A DNA stretch of 64,000 bases from the NCBI RefSeq assembly GCF_964204645.1, contig NC_134031.1:4695001-4759000 (forward strand), written 5' to 3'. A model generated the notes under the pieces. That model did not search any database, was not told the origin of the DNA, and saw only the letters and a program-made list of their open reading frames with translations. The DNA is from Tubulanus polymorphus (Eukaryota; Nemertea; Palaeonemertea; Tubulaniformes; Tubulanidae). Shown here one piece after another: positions 15,701-55,624 of this stretch; position 1 is the first letter of the stretch; every line of letters starts with the position of its first letter. The position numbers and the translations under genes are program-made.

Positions 15701-18700
15701 GGGACATAATTAGGGAAAATGAAGAATTAGAATAATCTTTAGAGGAACTGTAGAAAATTGTTTCAGGAATGGCAATAGTTCTTTCAATAGCATCAAAAAT
15801 CACCTTCAGGATCCAGTTCCACAATTGTGAGTTAGAGTTAACTCTGAGTTAATGTTAGTTCCTTTTCAATGAGTTAACTCAGAGTTAAATCTTAACTCGG
15901 AACTGTGGAACTGGACCCAGGGTCCCGCCAATCAGGGACAGTTGCGGGAACTTTCCCCGACAATCAGGGACTGTCGGCCTCTCTGTCTAGGGCAGCAATC
16001 GCAGCGATCTAGAACTAGGGAATGGATTTTTTCAACGCGCTGAAGTGCGTCATTTTCTTTGAAAAGTCAATTACTAAAAAAGTACGGCGACATTTCCGAC
16101 GAACTTATAGTTTGTTTTATCGCGATCATTAACCGCTAATTAAACCGTAATCGCAGTGCGATGATATTCGATGATATTTTCTTTTCTCGTGTATATGTTT
16201 CAGATCTGTGACGTACTTTACGTGTGCATGCGCAAGGAATCGAACAACACCAAATATAGAACACTGCCTTATCAACGTTGACGAGTTATCAACTTCTAGA
16301 GGCAATAATCGTATAACATTTCAACAAACGCCGAGGGTTTATCAAGAGGCCATAATAATTAACGCGGGACAGAAGGCTCATTGTTGAAGTTGTTGTGTGG
16401 ATACTTTTATCATTACCGCTTCAGACGTTCGTTCAGATCGGATCAGACCTGCCGACTACTACTACGCGGTAAGCATTCACCGATCAATCCGGATCATCCG
16501 TTAATCCGGCTTTATATAAGAAGTCGACAACGCACAACGAAACCTAGCTTTATATAAGTTGTCGACAACGCAAAAGAAAATCTAGTTGGCGGGAGTTCAT
16601 CGTAAGCTAGGATCTGAAGCTGTTGGACTTACGCTAATGCTGCCGTTACTTTTGAGATTGCGTTAATTCAATCGCGGTATTTTCGCTGAATCATGTATTA
16701 TTTGCTATTGGCGTTGCTCGCGTTTTCGGCGGCGTCCGTGCCGAACGTCGCCGCCTACACGCACGAATTCAAGGACTACCGCGAATTTCTCAACGATCCC
16801 GAATTCAATTTCATCATGTGCCCGATGAAATGCTTTTGCGACGACGAAAAGGTCTACTGTCGCAACGCGAACTACACGCGTATCCCGCAGGAATTCAGCA
16901 AAGCGATCTCCGAACTGGCTCTGGACGGGAACCGACTACAGACCCTGACGCGCAACAGTCTGGACAGGTACCGGTACCTACGCACGCTGAATCTATACGA
17001 TAACCATCTAGATTACATCGAGCCGGGCACGTTTACGAATTTGAAATATCTGCGATACCTGAATCTAGGGCGTAATCGTTTGGAATACCTGGCTAGCAGT
17101 ATGTTTGACGGGCTGCACAAGCTGCGCACGATCAACCTTCAAGCGAACGGCCTACGCGTCGTTCCCGACGTCGTCAAATCGTTCGCGCGTCTCAACGATC
17201 TGAATCTCGGCGAAAACCGCATCGTCGAATTGCCGAAGGACACTTTCGTCAAAAATCCGAAAATCCGTCTGCTCAACGTGAGTCACAACGCGATCGCGAC
17301 GATGCACCGAGAAGTTCTGAAACCGCTGACGCATTTACGGTACTTTCTCATCAACGATAATCCGTTGGGCGACGCCGGCAGCGAGTTGGACTTGACCGCG
17401 AATCGGCGTCTGTACTTCATCGACATGTCCGATACGATGCTCCGCGCCGTCCCGAAGAATCTGCCGGCGACGCTGTTCGACTTGCGTCTGCCGCGCAATC
17501 TCATCGATTGGATCTACGTCGAAGACTTCAAAAACACGACCGCGTTGGACATTTTGATCTTGAACAACAACGCGATAACACACATCGACGACGCGGCGCT
17601 GGTCAACTCGACGAATCTACGCGAATTGTGGCTGAATCACAATAAACTACAGCGCATGCCGTCATTACCGTCTAGTCTGCGCTCGCTTTACGCCGACTTC
17701 AACGAAATCTACGAAATCCAACGCAAGACGTTCGCGTCGTGTCCGCGTTTGGAGTTCCTATCGATGCAAAAGAACAAGATTCGCGACATCGAAGCAGAGA
17801 GCTTCAAGAACTTGTCGCTGCGATCGGTCGACTTGAGCGCGAATCGAATTCTCGAGTTGAAAACGTTCACGTTCTGCGACCTGAAGAACCTCGAGAAACT
17901 CGACTTGTCGGTGAACCCGCTCGTCAAACTGGACGCGCAGAGCATGCACAACGTCGACAATCTACGCGTGCTTCAAATGGCGCGAACAAACGAGAAATCT
18001 CGACGCGAATTCGACGATGGCGGCTCCGATTTGGACATGTTGGAACGCATGGCCCATCTGACACACCTCGACTTGTTTAACAGTTCCGGAATCGCCAAAA
18101 AATGGATCGCCTCGAGAAAAGTTCTCCGAAAGGTAACGACACGAGAAATTTCCATCGATCGATTTTAGCCCCAATCACAGGGAGGTACCAACCGAAGCCT
18201 GTTTGACCAGGGCCATATTGGCCGGACCAAAAACGTCAGACCAGGCCCAGTCATGGGTCAAATTATAGCATGTGTATTGTAACTGGTTCCCAAAGTGATG
18301 CACTTTGCACTTAGTGGTTTACATGTGAACGTACTCTCTCATTAGTAGGCACGGACAGAATTCGACCTGGTCCCAATCCGTGCTAATTTGGCCCGGGGCA
18401 AATCATCTGTGATCGCGGCTTATATTGGCAGAATCATATAAAATTCAAGTGTCTCTCACATAACGCGCTACTGTTAACACTTGACACTGAGAGCCCAAAA
18501 GTTTGACCATTAAATTTATCTTTGAACTGATTATTGGAATCATAAAGTCAATCCTAGGAGGTCTATAAATTGAAACGAAACACAGGATTTCTATAAACGA
18601 TTTCTTAAAATGCACATACAATCAAACCCTCTGAATCAGCTTATCCCAGATTAAGATCTAATTGAGATATTATTGACAATCCACATATATATATATAAAT

Positions 18701-21700
18701 ATAGTGCATAAAATATGATGTTTAATCTGGTTTTTCTGACTTTCGTATATTAGCACCCATTACTGGCATAATTTCATTCAGAACTACTAGGAAACTAAAT
18801 GAATTTTGTCGGTCGCAACTAATCCAAATTAAGCGAGGTTTGCCTGTACTCATCATCTGGACTAATATAATATGCGCGGGTACGATAAACAAAATTTCAG
18901 TCATACCAATCCCTAGTTTAGGAATTGCTGATCCTTCCGATCGTCGGCAGTTTTCGGTTTCTATCACAATATTTTCATAGAACGAATATTATGTGGTTTA
19001 GTCTGGCGCGTTCTGCTAGGTACCGCCGCCGACAACGTCGTATTTTCATAACTTTTTCCTCTACGAACCTCGTATTTCATAATACATTTTTTTCCCCGAG
19101 CATCGACGAAAAAATACTACGCTATTTTGTCTACTATAACGAATCGGGTGCTGAAGTATTTCACCGTTTCCACGCCGCCATTCTAGTATATATCGAAGTA
19201 GTCAAACGATTTTACGTACTATGAACTTCTATTATGGGCAGGCAATCATTGAAATATGCACCGCGGCACTTAACACATCGGATTAATTACATTAATTTTC
19301 ATTAACCTCGTTATCTGATCGCGGTTATAAGGGCAGACTCTGATTCGCGTTTTAAAGAGACTCTCGACGAAAGTTTTATCACGGATGATGTTTATTTAAA
19401 AAGCAACTATTTCATTATTTCCGATGTGAATTCCCCTGCGTTACATATCGGCCTGAACCCAGGCGCACGTGCGTATGCAGCTACCAATAGATACTTTCAA
19501 CACACGTGAAAAAAACTTTTAAAACACTTAACGTATCCATATCAGTTTGCGGTAATGAAGATGTTAGATGAATTGAATTGAGGTTCAGTGAGACAGCCGG
19601 TGTCTTCTAATCAAACTAATTATGTGCAGTGGGTAAGCGATTAAGCCATCAACCTTATATTACAACTGGTAATCATCAATCCAAAGCTGCAATCACACGA
19701 GCATTTTTGGCACGGGTCAAATTTGCCCTGCGCCAAATTAGGCCGGAACAACCGTTCACGCCAATGCCAGAAACATCCGGGCAAGCCCGAGGCCAAATTT
19801 TGGAAAGGGTGAGAAAGTGTGAATTGCAACTGGTTCCCGAAGTGACTCATTTCGCTTTGTTTAAGTATTGTTTAGTATCGAGTGAGTGGTTTACATGTGA
19901 ACACGCACTCTAATTAAGCATGGACCAAATTTGGCTCGAGTCTGATCCGTGCCTCCATGTGATCGCGGCTAAGGATCATGGATAGAAACTCTGGCCTACA
20001 ACCTACAACATTGAGTGGGAATTCTAAAATGTATCATAAAAGCCAGTGTGTTATCTAGCTAAAATTATGAGATCCATATAGAATTTCAATAGGAACAATA
20101 TAGGAACAATATTTCGCACACTGACAAAAGCAATAATGAAACAAATCGTAATATCTTATCAGTTACATAATACAGCAATCATATCGAATATCCCAAAGTC
20201 CAGTATAAATCATGTTGCGAAATTTATACACGGAAATCTATGTTTCCAACATGAATATCTGTCAATCAGACCAGGGACATAAGGCTAAGATAAGATGATA
20301 CCGTGTTTTTCCTAATTGGCCGGGTCACTTTTGTAAACTGCACTTAAATTTGCAATCAATTCATTTCTACAATTGCTGTGTCTGTTATGGTTAACTTGAT
20401 CATGATTTTGATAAAAGTTATGTACACGGTAATAAAGGCAGCCAGGCCGAGTCAACTTTTAAGCTCAGCAGAAATGAGAAAGAAAATATCAAGGTTAATT
20501 TGCGCAAAGTGAAATAAATTTTGTCGTCGTTTCAGGTTCAAGATTTGAACTTGATGTTCAACGAACTGATAACTCTACCCCAAGACCTGCCGATGTACGT
20601 GCCTCAAATACGCAACATCAAACTCGCCGGCAACAACTGGCACTGCAACGCATCGTTAATCTGGTTCCACTATTGGATCAAACGTTTTCCGAACTTGTTC
20701 TTCGCGCGGCACCACATCGTCTGTTACACTCCGTTCAAGCTGCGTTACCGGCCGATATTCACTGTGCCCGTGCACGAATTCCGTCGCGTGAAAGGACCGC
20801 CGAGCGATAAGCCCCCATTCCCGAAATGTGACCAGTGCGACGACAACGCGGCCAAACCGGAGGAAGGTATTGATATTATCATTATAATTACCATTATTTT
20901 TTATTGTTATCATTATTATCATTATCATAGTTATAATTATCACAAATATCATGAAACTGTTATGACCATGCACGGATTGCACATGGGTCCAGTGCCTTAT
21001 AAGTTCAGCCCTCAAAGGCTTGCGCTATTCCGCATTGCAAAAATAACCTAATCTCGTAACGTAGTGACATAAAAATAAATTATCAATATCATTATTATTT
21101 CTGTAAGGATCACCGGAGAATGATGATGTTGAAGGTTCAACGACGACTGGTAAACACGGTGAGCCCGTTAAACACAGCGGTACGCGTCATGACGAGAACG
21201 AAGACATCGGCGGTCCGTTAGATCCGAGAGTCGTCGAACCGGCTACCGACCGCGACGACGGTCTCATCATCGAAACGCACACCACTAAACCGGACTCTAA
21301 ACCGGAAATCGTAAGTCGAACACGCACGAAAGATCCAGAAGAAGTTGAATCGGTGATCCATGAAAAACCAAAAGAAGATATTGAGGAAACGGCTGATATA
21401 CAAGTGGCACCCGAAGGTAACATCTCTTAATGGATTACAAATCAAACCAATAATGCTCCTGAATATGCCTAAAATGTCGAAATAAATTTCGATTTTTCAG
21501 ATGTTAAAACAACCGTACAGAGCGCACCTGAGAAACTACCCGAACAACAAACACCCGAACAAACAATTGAACTGAAGAAAACTGAAGCATCAATTGATAT
21601 AAAGGCTGATGAATCTGAAAGTAAAGCTAATATCGATGTCATAGATAAAACGAAACCGACTTCACATATAGATGTGGACAATGAAATAGCCGGCATCGAC

Positions 21701-24700
21701 GTAGATGTAAAAACTAGTGAAAATACTTCTGACGAAAAACAGAATGTAAACGTAGATATTGATGTTAAAGAAACCGTAGAGCTTAAGGGCAAAACAACGT
21801 TTAAACAGCTAGAACCCACTAAAGCGTCAATAATTAAACTCACTACTAAGATTTTAGAGGGTGATGATATGCCAAAGGTAACGAAACCTGTAAAACAACT
21901 AGAAATGGGTGAGATAACTAATGATAATGAAGTAGATGATGTAGTTAGTTCGATAGTTAATGGCCATATTATTGATGAGAAAGAAACTCCTGAAGACAAT
22001 TTGAAAGGGGAGGATGTGATAGAAAATGAGGGTGTAGAAGACAAAGACACAAAAGTAGAAAGTAAAGAAAAATCTGAAACTGAGGTGAAAAGTGATGTGT
22101 TGATTGATATCGGTAAATCTGATACTAGAGTTGATATAGATGTCATAGATGAAACTGCACCTACACCTCATACAGATATTGATATAGTGGATCAGAAACT
22201 AGAAAATGAGGGGGAAGAAGAGAAAGACACAAAAGAAGAAAGTAAGGAAAAATCGGAAACCGAGGTTAAAACTGAGGTATTGATTGATATCAATAAATCT
22301 GATACTAAAGTTGATATAGATGTTATAGATGAAACTGCACCTCAAACAGATATAGATAAAGCAGATTTAAATCTTACTGATACATCAGTAATAAATGAAG
22401 CATCGATTGATAACAATGTTGATAAATCAGATGTTACTATAGATGTTATAGATGAAATTGTACCAACATCACGTATAGATGTCGAAGATAAAATAGCTGG
22501 TATCAACGTAGATGTAAAGCCTAGTGAAATTACTTCTGGAGAAAGTCAGGGTGATAATCTAGATATAATTGAAATTGAAGGTAAAAGGAAAACAACATTT
22601 AAAGAACTAGAACCGACTAAAGCTACGATTACAAAGCTCACTACTAAGATTCTTGAGGGTAATGATTTGCCAAAGGTAACAAAACCATTAAAACAACTTG
22701 AAAAGGGTGATAAAGTAAATGAGGTGGTCGATGATAATGTAGTGAGTTCGATTGTAAAGAGTGATATCAATGAAAAAGATGAAACTTCCAAAGAAGACTT
22801 GAAAGGAGAGGATCTTATGGGTAAAGAGTTGACAAATGAGAAAGAATTCGTAGATACAAGAGAAGAGAGTAAGGTTAAATTAGAAACATATGAGAATGAC
22901 CAAGATGAGGGCAAAGTGAATGAATTTGGTGAATCTGGCTCAGGTATGGAGCCTTTAATCCATAAGGAAGAGGTTGAGATGGAAATTGATGATGGAGATG
23001 AAGAGAATAATTGGGGAGATGCAACAGAAGATACAGTTAAAGAAAAGCAATCCGAGTTCAGTAGTGGAACATTTGAAGAGAACAATAAACAGAAGCTCGA
23101 AGATAATAAAGAAAGTGAGAAAAGATTAACAACAATCGTAGAGGAGACACAGGAGAACAATCTGGAAGGTGGACAGGAAGAAAAATCAGATGAATTGTTA
23201 ACAGAGGGTACACCTATTGCCCATGTAGATTCAGATCAAGAAGAAAGCGGCGAGGCAATAACCGACGAAAGTAATGTAGCTAAGATGATTAATAAGGAAA
23301 ACGCAGTTACAGATGATGAAAACATGGACAGAAAGACCGGGTTACAGGCAATTAAAGAATTTAAAGTCGAAGATGAAAAGATAGAAGAAAAGGAACCGGC
23401 CAAAAAGACAGGATTACAGATAATCAAAGAATACAACGTTGACGAAAGTATTAGCAAGGAGAGCGAAAAACACACGCAATCATTGGAGGAAATAGAACCG
23501 GAAGAGAGAGAAACCGGACTGCAAGAAATCAAAGAATTTCAAGTAGACGAAAATATTGAGTCACCGACAGAAGGGAAAATTTCAACAACAGAAACGGGAA
23601 GTAAAACTGGAGATTTCAGAAATAAAGAAACCGGGTTGCAAACCATTCAGGAGTTCCACGTCGACGAAAACATCGACGAAACTCCTGATGACATCGACAT
23701 CATCCCAAAGAGAATGACGACGAAAACTTTGGAAAGTTCTCGAAATTTCACCACGAAAAAAGTGACGAAAGTCCTCGAAGGAAAGACATCGGTGAAACCA
23801 TCGTTCAAAACGACGAAATTCAAAACGCTCGAAGGAAAATCAACCGTTCACGGAAAGGATCATTCGACGAAGCACTTCTTGCGCACGGGAACAACAAAGA
23901 GTATCAAAAGATGGACGACGCGTAGACCAAATATGGATAGTTCACTTCATGCAATACTTAAAGGCCAAACGACACCTCCGAGGGATGATATCGAAACGCT
24001 AACTATACCTGACAAGTCGACTGTAGCCGATTCACCAGTCGATTCGAAAAACGTCGACTTGCACAAGTCCGAGGATGAGAATACTAATACAAAACAGGAT
24101 ACGACTTATCAAGAACAACTGAAGAAAGACGAACAGGTTTGGCAAATGATGGGCAAAATGTTCGGATTTTGATCGTGACGGAGTTTTAGACGAACGCGAT
24201 TGAATCATAAAATAATGAGGGTTTAACGCGTGCAAAACGACGTACTTTCAATCGATCAGTATTATATTCGTAACACCGGGGAAAATGAGATCGTCGGGAC
24301 ATTCCGAGGATGGAATTTGGTAATCGAAAATTGTATATATGAAATGCAGTTACGTAAGCGCGATATCGCTAATACCTTTCATTAACGACGCGAGATCATT
24401 CGAACAATAATACCGAGGTAACATTCTACTAAACAGACAAGCTTATATCGATATTATAGATCCTGTAATCTGGATATTATTAGTATAAGTGCTGAAATGA
24501 AACACAGTTTGTCATGCTTGTTTATTTCATATGTACATGTATTATATAGGTAGGCATATGGTTCGCATTTTTACCTTCGTACGAGATATTTCTACTAATT
24601 TCCATATGTATCTACGAAGCTGAACAGAATGTAGAATTGCTAGGTTGATTGAAAGATGAATGCTTTTAGCATAGTATATCAAAAATGACGGGGTCCGCCT

Positions 24701-27700
24701 CGTCATAATAATGTGAATTTTGCATAAAAACCTGTTTTGGGTAGTGTGTTTTCTCACAAAAAACCGCTATGATATAGTTTAATCATTTTTTGGTCATATT
24801 TCTCATGATACATTATATAAGTTTAATATTTGTGATTTTATATGTAAATACGACTTTATTATATTAAAGTTCAGAAGGTACTTACAATCTTATCTATGCA
24901 ACACTAATTAGAGCAACAAAATATCATACTTTATACACGAATGCATCAAATATATTTGCATAAAATAAAAGCTGATTTCTGTACAAAAATAAGAAAATAG
25001 TCATTTTTCTTTCATTAAAGTCCAGGCAGGGTCCCTGCAGATCAGTCATTCCTGGATATACCAGTAAGCAGTTTTAACAGGGTCCCTACAGATCAGTCAT
25101 TCCTGGATATAAGGAGTTTTAAAGGAGAAAGTTTGATATTTCAAGGAAGCATCTGCATCACTTTCATATCCCAATTACTGTAGACTCATCATAAATCAGT
25201 AACTGTTAATCTCGGAAAACCATTAATTTGATGTTTTTGTAAGTTAAGTTTTATCCGTTACCCTACCTAAACTTTATCTTATTCGGTAATCGCCTTATTG
25301 GGTTAAAAAATAATCCATGTCCCAACTATATCAATTTAGGGATAGTCTACTCACACAACTGTACAACTTCAAACTAGACCAAATTTACTATCTGCCTATT
25401 TCTCAAATTTCATGGAGTTTTAAAAGAGTTATCGGCATTTTATCTAAATTAAAGGAGTTTCAAGCAACTTTAAAAGCACTTTCCGTTTAGAAAAAGTATT
25501 TTAAGGAATCAAGGAGTCGTAGGGACCCTGTAGTCACACCTGCTCAATCTAGATTTCCTAGACTATCCGGATTGTGGTTGTGCTGGGTTCACACACACAA
25601 CTTTTTGAAGAGAAAATTGAGAAGTTGTCTCAACTTCTCGATTTCTCAACTTCTGACCCGGTTAGATAAATAAACAAAGTTGTGTCAAAATGTGTGTTCA
25701 CACACACAGCTTAATTCACACAACTCCAGCTGGGCGTAGATGCAGCAGTGCATAGAAGGCATAGAAGGATGAACAAGAAATTGCAATTTAAGCAGAAATC
25801 AAAAAGATAATTGTGATAAAACGACTTTGGCCTATCCAGCATCCATATGGATATATCATGCCCGGTGTTAGGGGATCCTGGTACCGCCTGACTCCAGAAA
25901 TTTTAAAGAGAATTCATGAGTCTCATATATCAATTATCTGATAGACATGCGATTGATGAGATTTTAAAGGTTTATTCTTTTATTGTAGAAATTGTAGAAA
26001 TATATTGCCCTCTCTTACCAGAAAGGAAGACTATTAAAATGCGCGCGAATATACTGCATGTTGATTGGTTAGATTTCTCTCAACTCCTCGACTGAGTTGA
26101 GAGAAATAGAACATGTTCTATTTCTCTCAACTAGTCGAGACTAGAGTTGTGTCGAGGAAAATCGAGCAACTTTTTCGTTCACACACATGACTCACTTCAA
26201 AATAGTTGTCCTCGACTGTGAGTTGCTTGATTCCTCGACGAAAAATCGTGTGTGTGAACCTAGCATAAAGTTATTTATCACAGGCCAACCTGAGCAGTGG
26301 ATGAATGACATCAAGGATAATAGAAAGATCATCATCTTCTATCTATCTAGTAAGAATGTGTGTCACATGAAAAAAAGATCAACCCCATTCTTCATTAGTG
26401 CAAATATTTTCGTTACATGTACCTAGAACAACACCACGCCACTGTCTGGTAATCTTTTAAACGATTTTAAATCTATCTTTACACACCCGGCTTATATCAT
26501 CACGACAAACGCCGCACACCAAAAGCTATAAATACCCATAACCTGGTTTCATAACCCTATTTCGCCGGAATCTAAAACTAACAATCTGAAAAGATAGTAT
26601 CCCATTTCGAATCCGACTCTAAATAAAGTCAGTAGGAATTTACGAAAATTCCTAAATGATTGTCCGAACTAATTATGCCAAAGTGTAGATCATTTTTCAA
26701 ATTTGTACGTATTTACATTTCTACAACGTGTTCGCGCTGCTGTAGTTCGCCATTCAAGGATTTTTTTCTTACGCGCTCATTCTGAGTTAACATGCATTTT
26801 AGTTTAGCCTACAGACGTAAGTTTACAAACACGAGTGACTGGCTTGTTTACGAAAATTTCTAAACCAAAAAGTCTATTAAATAGTAATTACTACGAGCAG
26901 GCTATGTTTGTTTTAATGAAACAATGCCACTAACAGACAAAAGAATCGTATGAAATTTGATATACATCCCATCGCACTAGCCGTCTACAAGGCCTCCCAC
27001 AAATACCGGTATCTTTCCGGAAAAACCTATCGCGATAACGTTCGAATATGAACTAAATCTGTCCATGGTTTAAATCACGTGAACCCGCAGGAATTTCATC
27101 CATACGAGGAAGTATTTTTGCCAGACGACAAATAAACAAACATCAAACGTAGAGAAGAACTGAGCGACGAAGTCAAGTCTCCGCTCTTTCAAAAAATGAT
27201 CAAACTTTTATAGCACGTTCATTTGATGACAGCATCGCTGATAGCAACACGCCATCGAAATCTACTATCAGTAAGCTTTGAAGTTTATTTTTCATTCCGG
27301 TCTATACACTTCAGTCCGTTCATAATTTTATAGACAAAACAATCTACAAAAGTAAAGATTGTGTACATAGTTCCACCCACTTGCGCTACAACTTCCCATG
27401 GAATCTTGCCGAGGAGAGTCTCTTTTTGTGTATTATTTGTTTTATCAGCGAACTTGACTGCACTGCAGAGAACAATTCGCATGGCTTCAGTCACGTTCAT
27501 CGAAACTTAAAAGCTGATCGTTTAAAATTTGATGGATGAGACGTATACTAGAGAGTAACAGGATTACTAGAGTGCATATTGTCAGGCTACAAAAACTGTA
27601 ACCAGCGTTTTCACTGGTGCTAAAACGTCATCTAATGACTGATAGGGCTTAGCAAGTTACCAGTAATGTTGTGGTTAACGGATAAATATTTCTACCCTAA

Positions 27701-38509: not shown

Positions 38510-49768
<11,259 letters not shown>

Positions 49769-53700: not shown

Positions 53701-54251
53701 CGGTTTTACACAGGTAGTTTTGATGTTCAACAAAGTCTACTGCGTAAAATGAAACTAAGTATTTGGTCAACTCTCAGAATTTCTCCGGTCTCAACTTAAC
53801 CAAGTAAAGCAGAGTCTTTTCTCAACTCAGTTCGTCAAAGTACCAGATATTCTGACGGGCTAAACCCTAGACTTGGTATTTGGTCAAATTTGTCCAATTC
53901 TACAAGCCCCTTTGACTGAGTAATAATAAAGTAATTTGAAGTAATATAAAGAATCAATTGAATTACACGTCTTAAACTGGATATCTTACCATTTTCTTCC
54001 ACGTTAGCATCGCTGAGAGTTTGATTGTCATTCAGCGGGCGTCCGGTTTTCACATGCAACAGTCTGTGATAGACAGAGGCTTTTTGTCCGCCGCCCGGAT
54101 CGGGAACGTGACTGAGAGCCGTGATTTTCAATTTATCGACGATACAATCGGACGATACGTCGATACACAAGCACATCCCTTCCATGTTCACTACTTTCAC
54201 TTTCATACTTCGAGGCATGAATATACTAGTGGTGTTTTCAGACACAAACAT
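50776..54251 (-). CDS. UBAC1: UBAC1 (KPC2), ubiquitin-associated-domain cofactor of the KPC E3 ligase; complete, 10 exons
   Basis: Family role: adaptor of the KPC ubiquitin ligase (partner RNF123) that links substrates to the proteasome. Exons in transcript order: 53990-54251, 53424-53482, 53232-53348, 53002-53104, 52648-52756, 52130-52235, 51533-51637, 51328-51414, 51011-51152, 50776-50930. They sum to 1245 nt, 414 residues (human 405). Seen: ubiquitin-like N-terminus (about 1-105, ending [10 protein letters not shown]). Then the block [16 protein letters not shown], first UBA ([32 protein letters not shown], about 192-235), second UBA ([20 protein letters not shown]...CEWLLSDKK, about 288-325) and C-terminal STI1-type segment ([37 protein letters not shown]). 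Start chosen at MFVSENTT, which matches the family's MFV start. An intron holds a repeat at about 51660-52095. Confidence 0.95.
51660..52095. mobile_element. MITE, CAGGGTCCCTAC family (copy 2)
   Basis: It starts TATCAGGGTCCTTACAGGTCATTCGTG and ends TTAAGGAATCAAGGAGTCGTACAAGGGACCCTTGTA, matching copy 1 at 25028-25532 throughout. It lies in the UBAC1 intron upstream of the exon at 51533-51637. Confidence 0.72.
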
Positions 54252-55624
54252 TGGTAAATGTAGCGCTAGATGCAAACAATGTTTGGTTCAGGCATGGGAA
54301 ACGCTAAACCAGGAGAACGCCTTAGATTCTCACTGGAAGAAGTGCGTGTGATTGTAAATTTCGTGTACACCTAATAGTTTCGCAGTTCCAGGTGTTTCAA
54401 ACTTAAAGCAATCTCTAGAATCGCAATACACTCTCCAAGACCAAGTCCAAGTTATCTGAAAAGGAAAATTGACTTATTAAAAAATTTTCAATCAATCATT
54501 TATTATTTCTTAAAATGCAGCCTGACCCAACTATCGGTATGACTGCAGTTTAGGTGTCCCTAATGGTTATGTACCTAACCTTACCATAACACACTATTCT
54601 TTAATAAAGTTTAATAACATTAGCGCCACCCAGTGGATAGGTGACCCAAACTGCAGTGAGACCCAACTATCTGATCCCTGTATCACGGTATCACCAATTA
54701 CATGCGGTACCGTGACTGGGTAGAAAATACAACAGAACAGTGATTAAATGGCAATAAATTTTGAATTTGATTGATAGTTTGATGAACTTTTTTCAGCCTA
54801 ATTTTATCGAATTCGCCACACTATTTTATTTCAAACATAACTCTTGTAGTTTACCTTAGTTGTCATAACGTTAAATAAAACTTTTTTTACCTAGAACGTC
54901 AAAATTTCCTGCAAATCGACAAAATATTTGCAAATTTCTGCTATTTGGTCGATGTTACATGGGCTCCACACGCAAATTGTACCATGTCATAGGAAAATAT
55001 CTCAAACTCGGATCAATTCAATTCACTGAATTATCCTCGCATACCAGGGTATGCTTCGGATGAATAAATTTCATAACAACAAATTTGAATCTTAGCAGCA
55101 TCAGAAAAATTTTAATTTCAATGTCCGTGCAAGGTCAGATAGTTGTAGAAATTGTTTTTTCGTTAGAACTGTGATTGGAACAACCTCAACAACATCATGA
55201 CTGTCACAGCACCAACTGTTGAAGCCTTCAAGCAAGACTTTACTGCAACTAGATAGCAGTCGGCTTTCTCTTAACATGTCCATCTCATGCCAGAAGTGGT
55301 CACTGTCAATGTACCTCATCCAGATTGAGATAGGGTTCATAGGGGCATGTGGTGATAGCTGCCTGCGGTCCAAAACTAAACTATTTCTAGATGTCTCAAA
55401 GAAAATACTAACTAAAACGATTTTGTATAAACTGTTTACATATATTGAATCATTCAATCTTTTAATTTACATCAAACGGTGCTCAAAGCCACAATCTGGG
55501 CTTCTTAATTGGGCTACCGATGTCTTAAAGATGACAAGCAGCGGCATAGAGATTGATAATGTGGTATGTAAGTCTAAGTCCCAGTAGTGTCTTAAATAGA
55601 CACTAGAAACTACAGTTGAACTGT
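54252..55624. other. Intergenic region between UBAC1 and PSMB7
   Basis: It holds the UBAC1 upstream region (about 54252-54470) and a small repeat with TGCAGTTTAGGT / ACCCAAACTGCA ends (about 54545-54655). From 55100 to 55590 a stretch is open on both strands (118 and 122 codons) without recognisable homology. The PSMB7 3' UTR must end in the right part. No gene can be supported. Confidence 0.45.

Follow-up and report, generated by a model that had tools for sequence, protein, structure and literature searches.

Does the interval 16693..24172 of the window analysed here, a 64,000-base stretch of the nemertean Tubulanus polymorphus (bases 4695001-4759000 of contig C7, NC_134031.1), encode one secreted leucine-rich repeat (LRR) protein with an acidic tail of nearly 1000 residues, and is such a protein of an undescribed type, as a sequence-only reading had proposed? 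The locus holds one open splice chain in which an LRR domain is followed by a charged tail that lacks cysteine and arose by duplication. We put at about even the chance that one gene here encodes a secreted extracellular-matrix protein, with an LRR arc and a polyanionic brush tail, comparable to osteoadherin. Searches of the animal's own genome covered 267,791,593 bases in 77 contigs.

The predicted chain consists of four exons:

16693..18132, + strand: exon 1, with a signal peptide recognised by eye, the N-cap and most of the LRRs; it ends in phase 0.
20536..20866, + strand: exon 2, with the final LRRs and a degenerate LRRCT-like cap; it starts in phase 0 and ends in phase 1.
21108..21416, + strand: exon 3, where the acidic tail begins; a symmetrical exon (phase 1-1).
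21501..24172, + strand: exon 4, with the bulk of the tail and the stop codon.

Both the coordinates and the in-frame joins proposed earlier were confirmed: the chain yields 1583 residues plus a stop (1584 codons including the stop), and its three introns are all GT-AG, with phases 0, 1 and 1. The donors read AAG|GT in every case, and the acceptors of introns 1, 2 and 3 are CAG, AAG and CAG. Each intron brings a stop when translation runs on from the exon before it: intron 1 is open for 11 codons, intron 2 for 61 and intron 3 for 4, the latter two counts including the codon split at the junction. The join of exons 1 and 2 is supported by the repeat register, because the usual LRR spacing of 25 carries across intron 1, from the repeat at residue 456 in exon 1 to the next at residue 481, the opening residue of exon 2; immediately before the junction, from 424 to 456, the spacing is an irregular 32. 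On the far side, the earliest in-frame Met of the tail lies at residue 817 and the open frame of exon 3 begins only at 21107 (that of exon 4 at 21473), so that the tail appears to need an upstream exon. Phase, the absence of an early Met and the late opening of the frame thus give indirect support to the joins between the LRR domain and the tail.

Two features mark the start of the protein:

16693..16755, + strand: proposed signal peptide of 21 residues, with cleavage after VAA, read by eye.
16819..16860, + strand: N-cap cysteines 43, 47, 49 and 56 (C-x3-C-x-C-x6-C), sub-threshold for Pfam LRRNT.

The top two hydrophobic 19-residue stretches of the whole protein begin at residues 3 and 4. The N-terminus is thus hydrophobic; the signal peptide noted before is a reading by eye, and on that reading the protein is likely secreted. 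The LRRNT cap claimed earlier has cysteines that fit a typical N-cap and a Pfam score under the cut-off (18.3 versus 25.8 bits, E 0.0018). The LRR array is recognised by Pfam in exon 1 (LRR_8, 1.6e-51) and is longer than the 'about 15' repeats first counted: a strict LxxLxLxxNxL-type pattern gives 16 matches, and three further units recognised by eye at residues 424, 456 and 505 bring the total to 18-19. Of the 14 intervals between pattern matches at residues 72-400, 12 measure 23-25 and two shorter ones 21 and 20. The proposed C-cap (cysteines 517, 543, 578 and 581) begins with WHCNAS, where LRRCT caps normally carry a second cysteine. It can be described by eye as degenerate and LRRCT-like, and Pfam returned neither LRRCT nor any other family for exon 2, at E ≤ 1 with its read-through or at E ≤ 0.1 alone. 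All 10 cysteines of the protein lie at or before residue 581. Residues 1-590 have an isoelectric point (pI) of 8.9 and a net charge of +10, and residues 23-590 plot on the folded side of the Uversky charge-hydropathy line. Single-sequence AlphaFold modelling of exon 1 was uninformative either way, with a mean confidence score (pLDDT) of 31.

The tail (residues 591-1583) is the unusual part. The claim of a Glu/Asp/Lys/Thr-rich tail of nearly 1000 residues was borne out: it comprises 993 residues without cysteine, with 14.7% E, 11.5% K, 10.8% D, 10.7% T and 3.9% proline, a pI of 4.5 and a net charge of -119. The open frame of exon 4, 889 codons long, is not a product of chance, because 200 shuffles of its bases gave a mean longest frame of 72 codons and a maximum of 141. 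The highest 19-residue Kyte-Doolittle mean in the tail, 0.43, is too low for a membrane span, and in the Uversky plot the tail lies on the disordered side; it is probably disordered. Exon 4, which supplies 889 of the 993 tail residues, matched nothing in Pfam at E ≤ 1 and a single chance sequence in PDB (E 0.34), and no second copy of it was found in the animal's own genome at E ≤ 0.01. Exon 3 (102 of the 993 residues) was compared with Pfam only, with one match far under the cut-off (E 0.27). A pattern scan of prokaryote genomes for exon 4 gave 52 pattern matches, none of them confirmed, so that no more can be said than that a close bacterial relative was not seen.

The repeats of the tail are present at the DNA level:

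21628..22047, + strand: large tail duplication, copy 1, with ungapped blocks 21628-21759 and 21784-22047.
22435..22845, + strand: large tail duplication, copy 2, with blocks 22435-22566 (77% identical) and 22582-22845 (73%).
22020..22358, + strand: second duplication, 22020-22178 versus 22200-22358, 159 bases at a spacing of 180, 87% identical.
23332, 23404, 23509 and 23626 (23332..23676), + strand: four TGLQxI[KQ]E[FY] motifs, copies of a 51-base repeat.
23699..23968, + strand: basic block, residues 1427-1516, net charge +17, with three TT[FK]..LE[GS] cassettes.

By its sequence, the tail grew through nested duplications. The large one has an offset near 800 bases and ungapped blocks of 264 bases (73%) and 132 bases (77%), and the 159-base duplication is probably younger, because its copies are 87% identical. 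Ratios of nonsynonymous to synonymous divergence (dN/dS) from these three short ungapped pairs, calculated without a significance test, were below one by both methods: with NG86, 0.44 for the 132-base block (0.235/0.534), 0.31 for the 264-base block (0.257/0.829) and 0.35 for the 159-base duplication (0.112/0.321); with YN00, 0.29, 0.22 and 0.36, respectively. Differences at codon positions 1, 2 and 3 numbered 21, 11 and 40 in the 264-base pair, 4, 7 and 10 in the 159-base pair and 8, 9 and 14 in the 132-base pair; summed over the six pairs of TGLQ copies, they numbered 21, 18 and 61. Because NG86 dN/dS lies at 0.31-0.44 and the TGLQ differences are biased to third positions, the tail seems to be under protein-level constraint, and the data point to selection on its protein sequence, whose duration one genome cannot date.

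The long modules contain TTFKxLEP and TTKILEG. A cassette of TT[FK], up to 5 residues and LE[GPS] occurs 7 times in the tail, 3 of them in residues 1433-1472, whereas 2000 shuffles gave 0.0115 on average and never more than 1; the count overstates independence, as the pattern was defined post hoc and 2 of the 7 copies derive from duplication. The sequence-only reading had described two unrelated repeat sets. Both exist, and a third element had been missed, the basic C-terminal block, which shares the cassette of the long modules. In a 90-residue window the block reaches +17, compared with at most +13 in 500 shuffles.

If the gene is indeed one unit of the osteoadherin-like kind, the signal peptide would send the protein out of the cell, and the LRR arc, with its pI of 8.9, would bind a matrix or cell-surface partner. 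The tail, probably disordered, would form a long polyanionic brush, retaining cations and water or attaching to basic or mineral surfaces, and short, basic K/T cassettes together with the basic block near the C-terminus could make multivalent contacts to the acidic tails of neighbouring molecules. The working would resemble that of osteoadherin, with a tail about twenty times longer. As before, we infer mineral or calcium binding and a matrix or scaffold role from composition; the earlier interpretation stands for architecture, by sequence, and remains compositional for function. Mineral binding is only one option, with a role in a gel or cuticle as its serious rival. A more specific version, which we regard as doubtful, is a lineage-specific family in which a secreted LRR protein acquired a polyelectrolyte tail of 1000 residues through exon addition and repeat expansion and cross-links into a gel or mineral-templating layer, its basic cassettes and block binding the acidic tails of neighbours; it would be an independent, far larger counterpart of the tetrapod osteoadherin extension.

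Several observations weigh against the osteoadherin-like reading. With 11.5% K, the tail is less anionic than an ideal mineral binder. Tail-wide charge segregation was considered and rejected, the observed value being reached by 386 of 500 shuffles, and a 40-residue window yields +10 at most, inside the range of the shuffles (maximum 12). Selection on the tail is drawn from the few short pairs named above; a third-position excess is clear in the 264-base pair only, the 87% pair lacks a strong excess, and dS is saturated in 4 of the 6 TGLQ pairs. The acceptor of intron 2 is AAG, and AAG acceptors are rarer than CAG. GC content at third codon positions (GC3) is 0.72 for the LRR part but 0.32 for the tail (tail minimum 0.15, with 0.56 near the end), so that history or constraint is not the same for both. 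That sharp contrast in GC3 and composition, together with the AAG acceptor and a read-through of intron 2 that stays open to a stop at 21051, would suit two transcription units or isoforms, in which a secreted protein with LRRs only (produced, for example, when intron 2 is retained) exists beside a separate tail protein. We hold this improbable: no Met precedes residue 817 in the tail, the frame of exon 3 opens at 21107, the joins are in phase, and the start of the read-through (20874-20942) is an ATT/ATC-type simple repeat.

Less probable still is that the tail is a loosely selected, fast-evolving disordered extension with no specific role, the LRR domain alone mattering. Repeat expansion, the single-copy state of exon 4 and the low GC3 of the 100-residue blocks from residue 701 to 1400 (0.15-0.37) would agree with it; the dN/dS of 0.31-0.44 between duplicates (NG86) and the TGLQ motifs, which differ less often at codon positions 1 and 2, speak against it. 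If orthologues proved to be without the tail, it would be one more extension of that kind. We see somewhat more in a secreted epithelial LRR-only protein that organises an apical matrix or a tube or mucus layer, although we rate it as rather unlikely. The T-rich, highly charged, hydrophilic tail would fit such a role, and in nematodes such as C. elegans LRR-only proteins belong to the apical precuticle or regulate it (PMC11304992). Against it, the 3.9% proline makes the tail not mucin-like, and Pfam above its cut-off shows no matrix-binding domain besides LRR.

Around and within the gene, further features were recorded:

16511 and 16549 (16511..16558), + strand: two TATA-like elements TTTATATAAG, a consensus match only; possible promoter.
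24863 and 24964 (24863..24969), + strand: the first two AATAAA/ATTAAA signals, candidate polyadenylation sites by consensus only.

The TATA-like elements stand in tandem, 38 bases apart, 182 and 144 bases upstream of the ATG, and the TTTATATAAG 10-mer has 3 exact + strand matches across the window. Up to 25600 there are four AATAAA/ATTAAA signals, all by consensus only, at 24863, 24964, 25014 and 25448. Intron 2, whose open read-through spans window 20867-21051, starts with an ATT/ATC-type simple repeat at 20874-20942; its retention would yield a short LRR-only isoform with an end that is hydrophobic and then Tyr/His-rich. Intron 1 contains two similar stretches, window 18190-18425 and 19690-19975, each with gtggtttacatgtgaac and, at some distance after it, tgatcgcggc, which by eye look like copies of one repetitive element. 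Elsewhere in the window, a neighbouring gene has an exon at 53838-54287 (- strand) in which Pfam detects a UBAC1 UBL-like domain (9.2e-11), and another has a WD40-type exon at 48669-49052 (+ strand), under the WD40 cut-off, which we presume to resemble PIK3R4.

Exon 1 found itself and at least 85 other places in the genome at E ≤ 1e-10, a lower bound, as 89 of 439 candidates were scored; the best relative among those scored shares 33% over 189 residues (E 1.5e-19). Exon 2 matched only itself at E ≤ 0.01. Of the 86 places, exon 1 itself included, found among the candidates scored, 75 sit in open frames of at least 1000 residues. The genome carries large arrays of GRL101-like receptors (LDLa repeats, LRR, 7tm_1), each in a single open frame, with clusters on C12, C6 and other contigs, represented by two loci:

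L011:439-3564 (C12): GRL101-like receptor, one of the places that exon 1 matches; Pfam shows LDLa repeats, LRR and 7tm_1.
L002:241-3156: GRL101-like receptor, recognised by eye.

A lectin-like N-terminal region in L011 was seen by eye only, and Pfam at E ≤ 0.1 gave no C-type lectin there. The size of the expansion is notable because, in the snail Biomphalaria sudanica, a 12-gene GRL101-like cluster lies within a schistosome-resistance region (PMC12297450). These receptors share the N-cap and first LRRs with the protein described here, L011 differing by its LDLa repeats and 7tm_1, and the similarity looks like generic LRR. A pattern scan of viral contigs for exon 1 gave 2 pattern matches, neither confirmed, so that no more can be said than that a close viral relative was not seen.

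Among described classes, the predicted protein falls in the broad class of extracellular LRR-only (eLRRon) proteins by its domain content. Across its whole length Pfam finds above cut-off LRR_8, LRR_4, LRR_5 and LRR_1 only (LRR_8 at 1.6e-51), without any other recognisable domain, and an extracellular location is suggested by the hydrophobic start with its signal peptide read by eye only. The C. elegans proteins LET-4, EGG-6 and SYM-1 likewise have extracellular LRRs and no other recognisable domain; for these the available portion of the source mentions no charged repeat tail, compared with 993 residues here (PMC11304992). On the proposal of an undescribed protein type the evidence is divided: the LRR part fits a broad described class, and exon 4 found no family in Pfam, nothing useful in PDB and no other copy in its own genome, in searches that included no collection of animal sequences.

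The best PDB sequence match was IGFALS (7wrq, E 4e-45), one of 362 distinct sequences at E ≤ 0.001. When the query is exons 1 and 2 together, IGFALS aligns in four overlapping stretches of query residues 42-225, and in each of the best 60 PDB matches the best stretch extends no further than residue 432, leaving the C-cap uncovered. Orthology to IGFALS was rejected, as the match is confined to residues 42-225 and is not a full-length co-linear one that includes the caps. The ectodomains of IGFALS, LGR4 and LRRC32 resemble the protein in having an N-cap and a long array of ~24-residue LRRs, and differ in that the tail is absent.

Small leucine-rich proteoglycans (SLRPs) have a class-specific spacing of N-cap cysteines, although general LRRNT caps can have the same spacing, and they show a short-long-long LRR pattern and, at the C-terminal end, conserved cysteines and an ear repeat. 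The protein has the N-terminal cluster C-x3-C-x-C-x6-C at residues 43-56. SLRP membership was rejected on its LRRCT-like cap, seen by eye (cysteines 517, 543, 578 and 581), and on the lack of a short-long-long pattern.

Among the literature matches listed, by title and opening of the abstract, no LRR protein of an invertebrate had a comparable tail, a weak negative, as papers rarely discuss such tails and few subscription papers were covered. The shell protein accripin11 has an acidic C-terminus on a mature form of 103 residues (PMC9808598). The tail supplies concrete repeat peptides for proteomic and binding work. The nearest likeness is with osteoadherin/osteomodulin, a class II SLRP in which a secreted LRR domain is followed by an acidic C-terminal extension; that extension is described as unique among SLRPs, occurs in tetrapods only and has been proposed to bind hydroxyapatite (PMC7310474). 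It measures 12-51 residues in tetrapods (PMC7310474), in contrast to 993 here, and the C-cap is also unlike. Should tail and LRR domain be translated together, the T. polymorphus protein would be an example of a standard LRR protein turned into a matrix polyelectrolyte, for comparison with osteoadherin in vertebrates.

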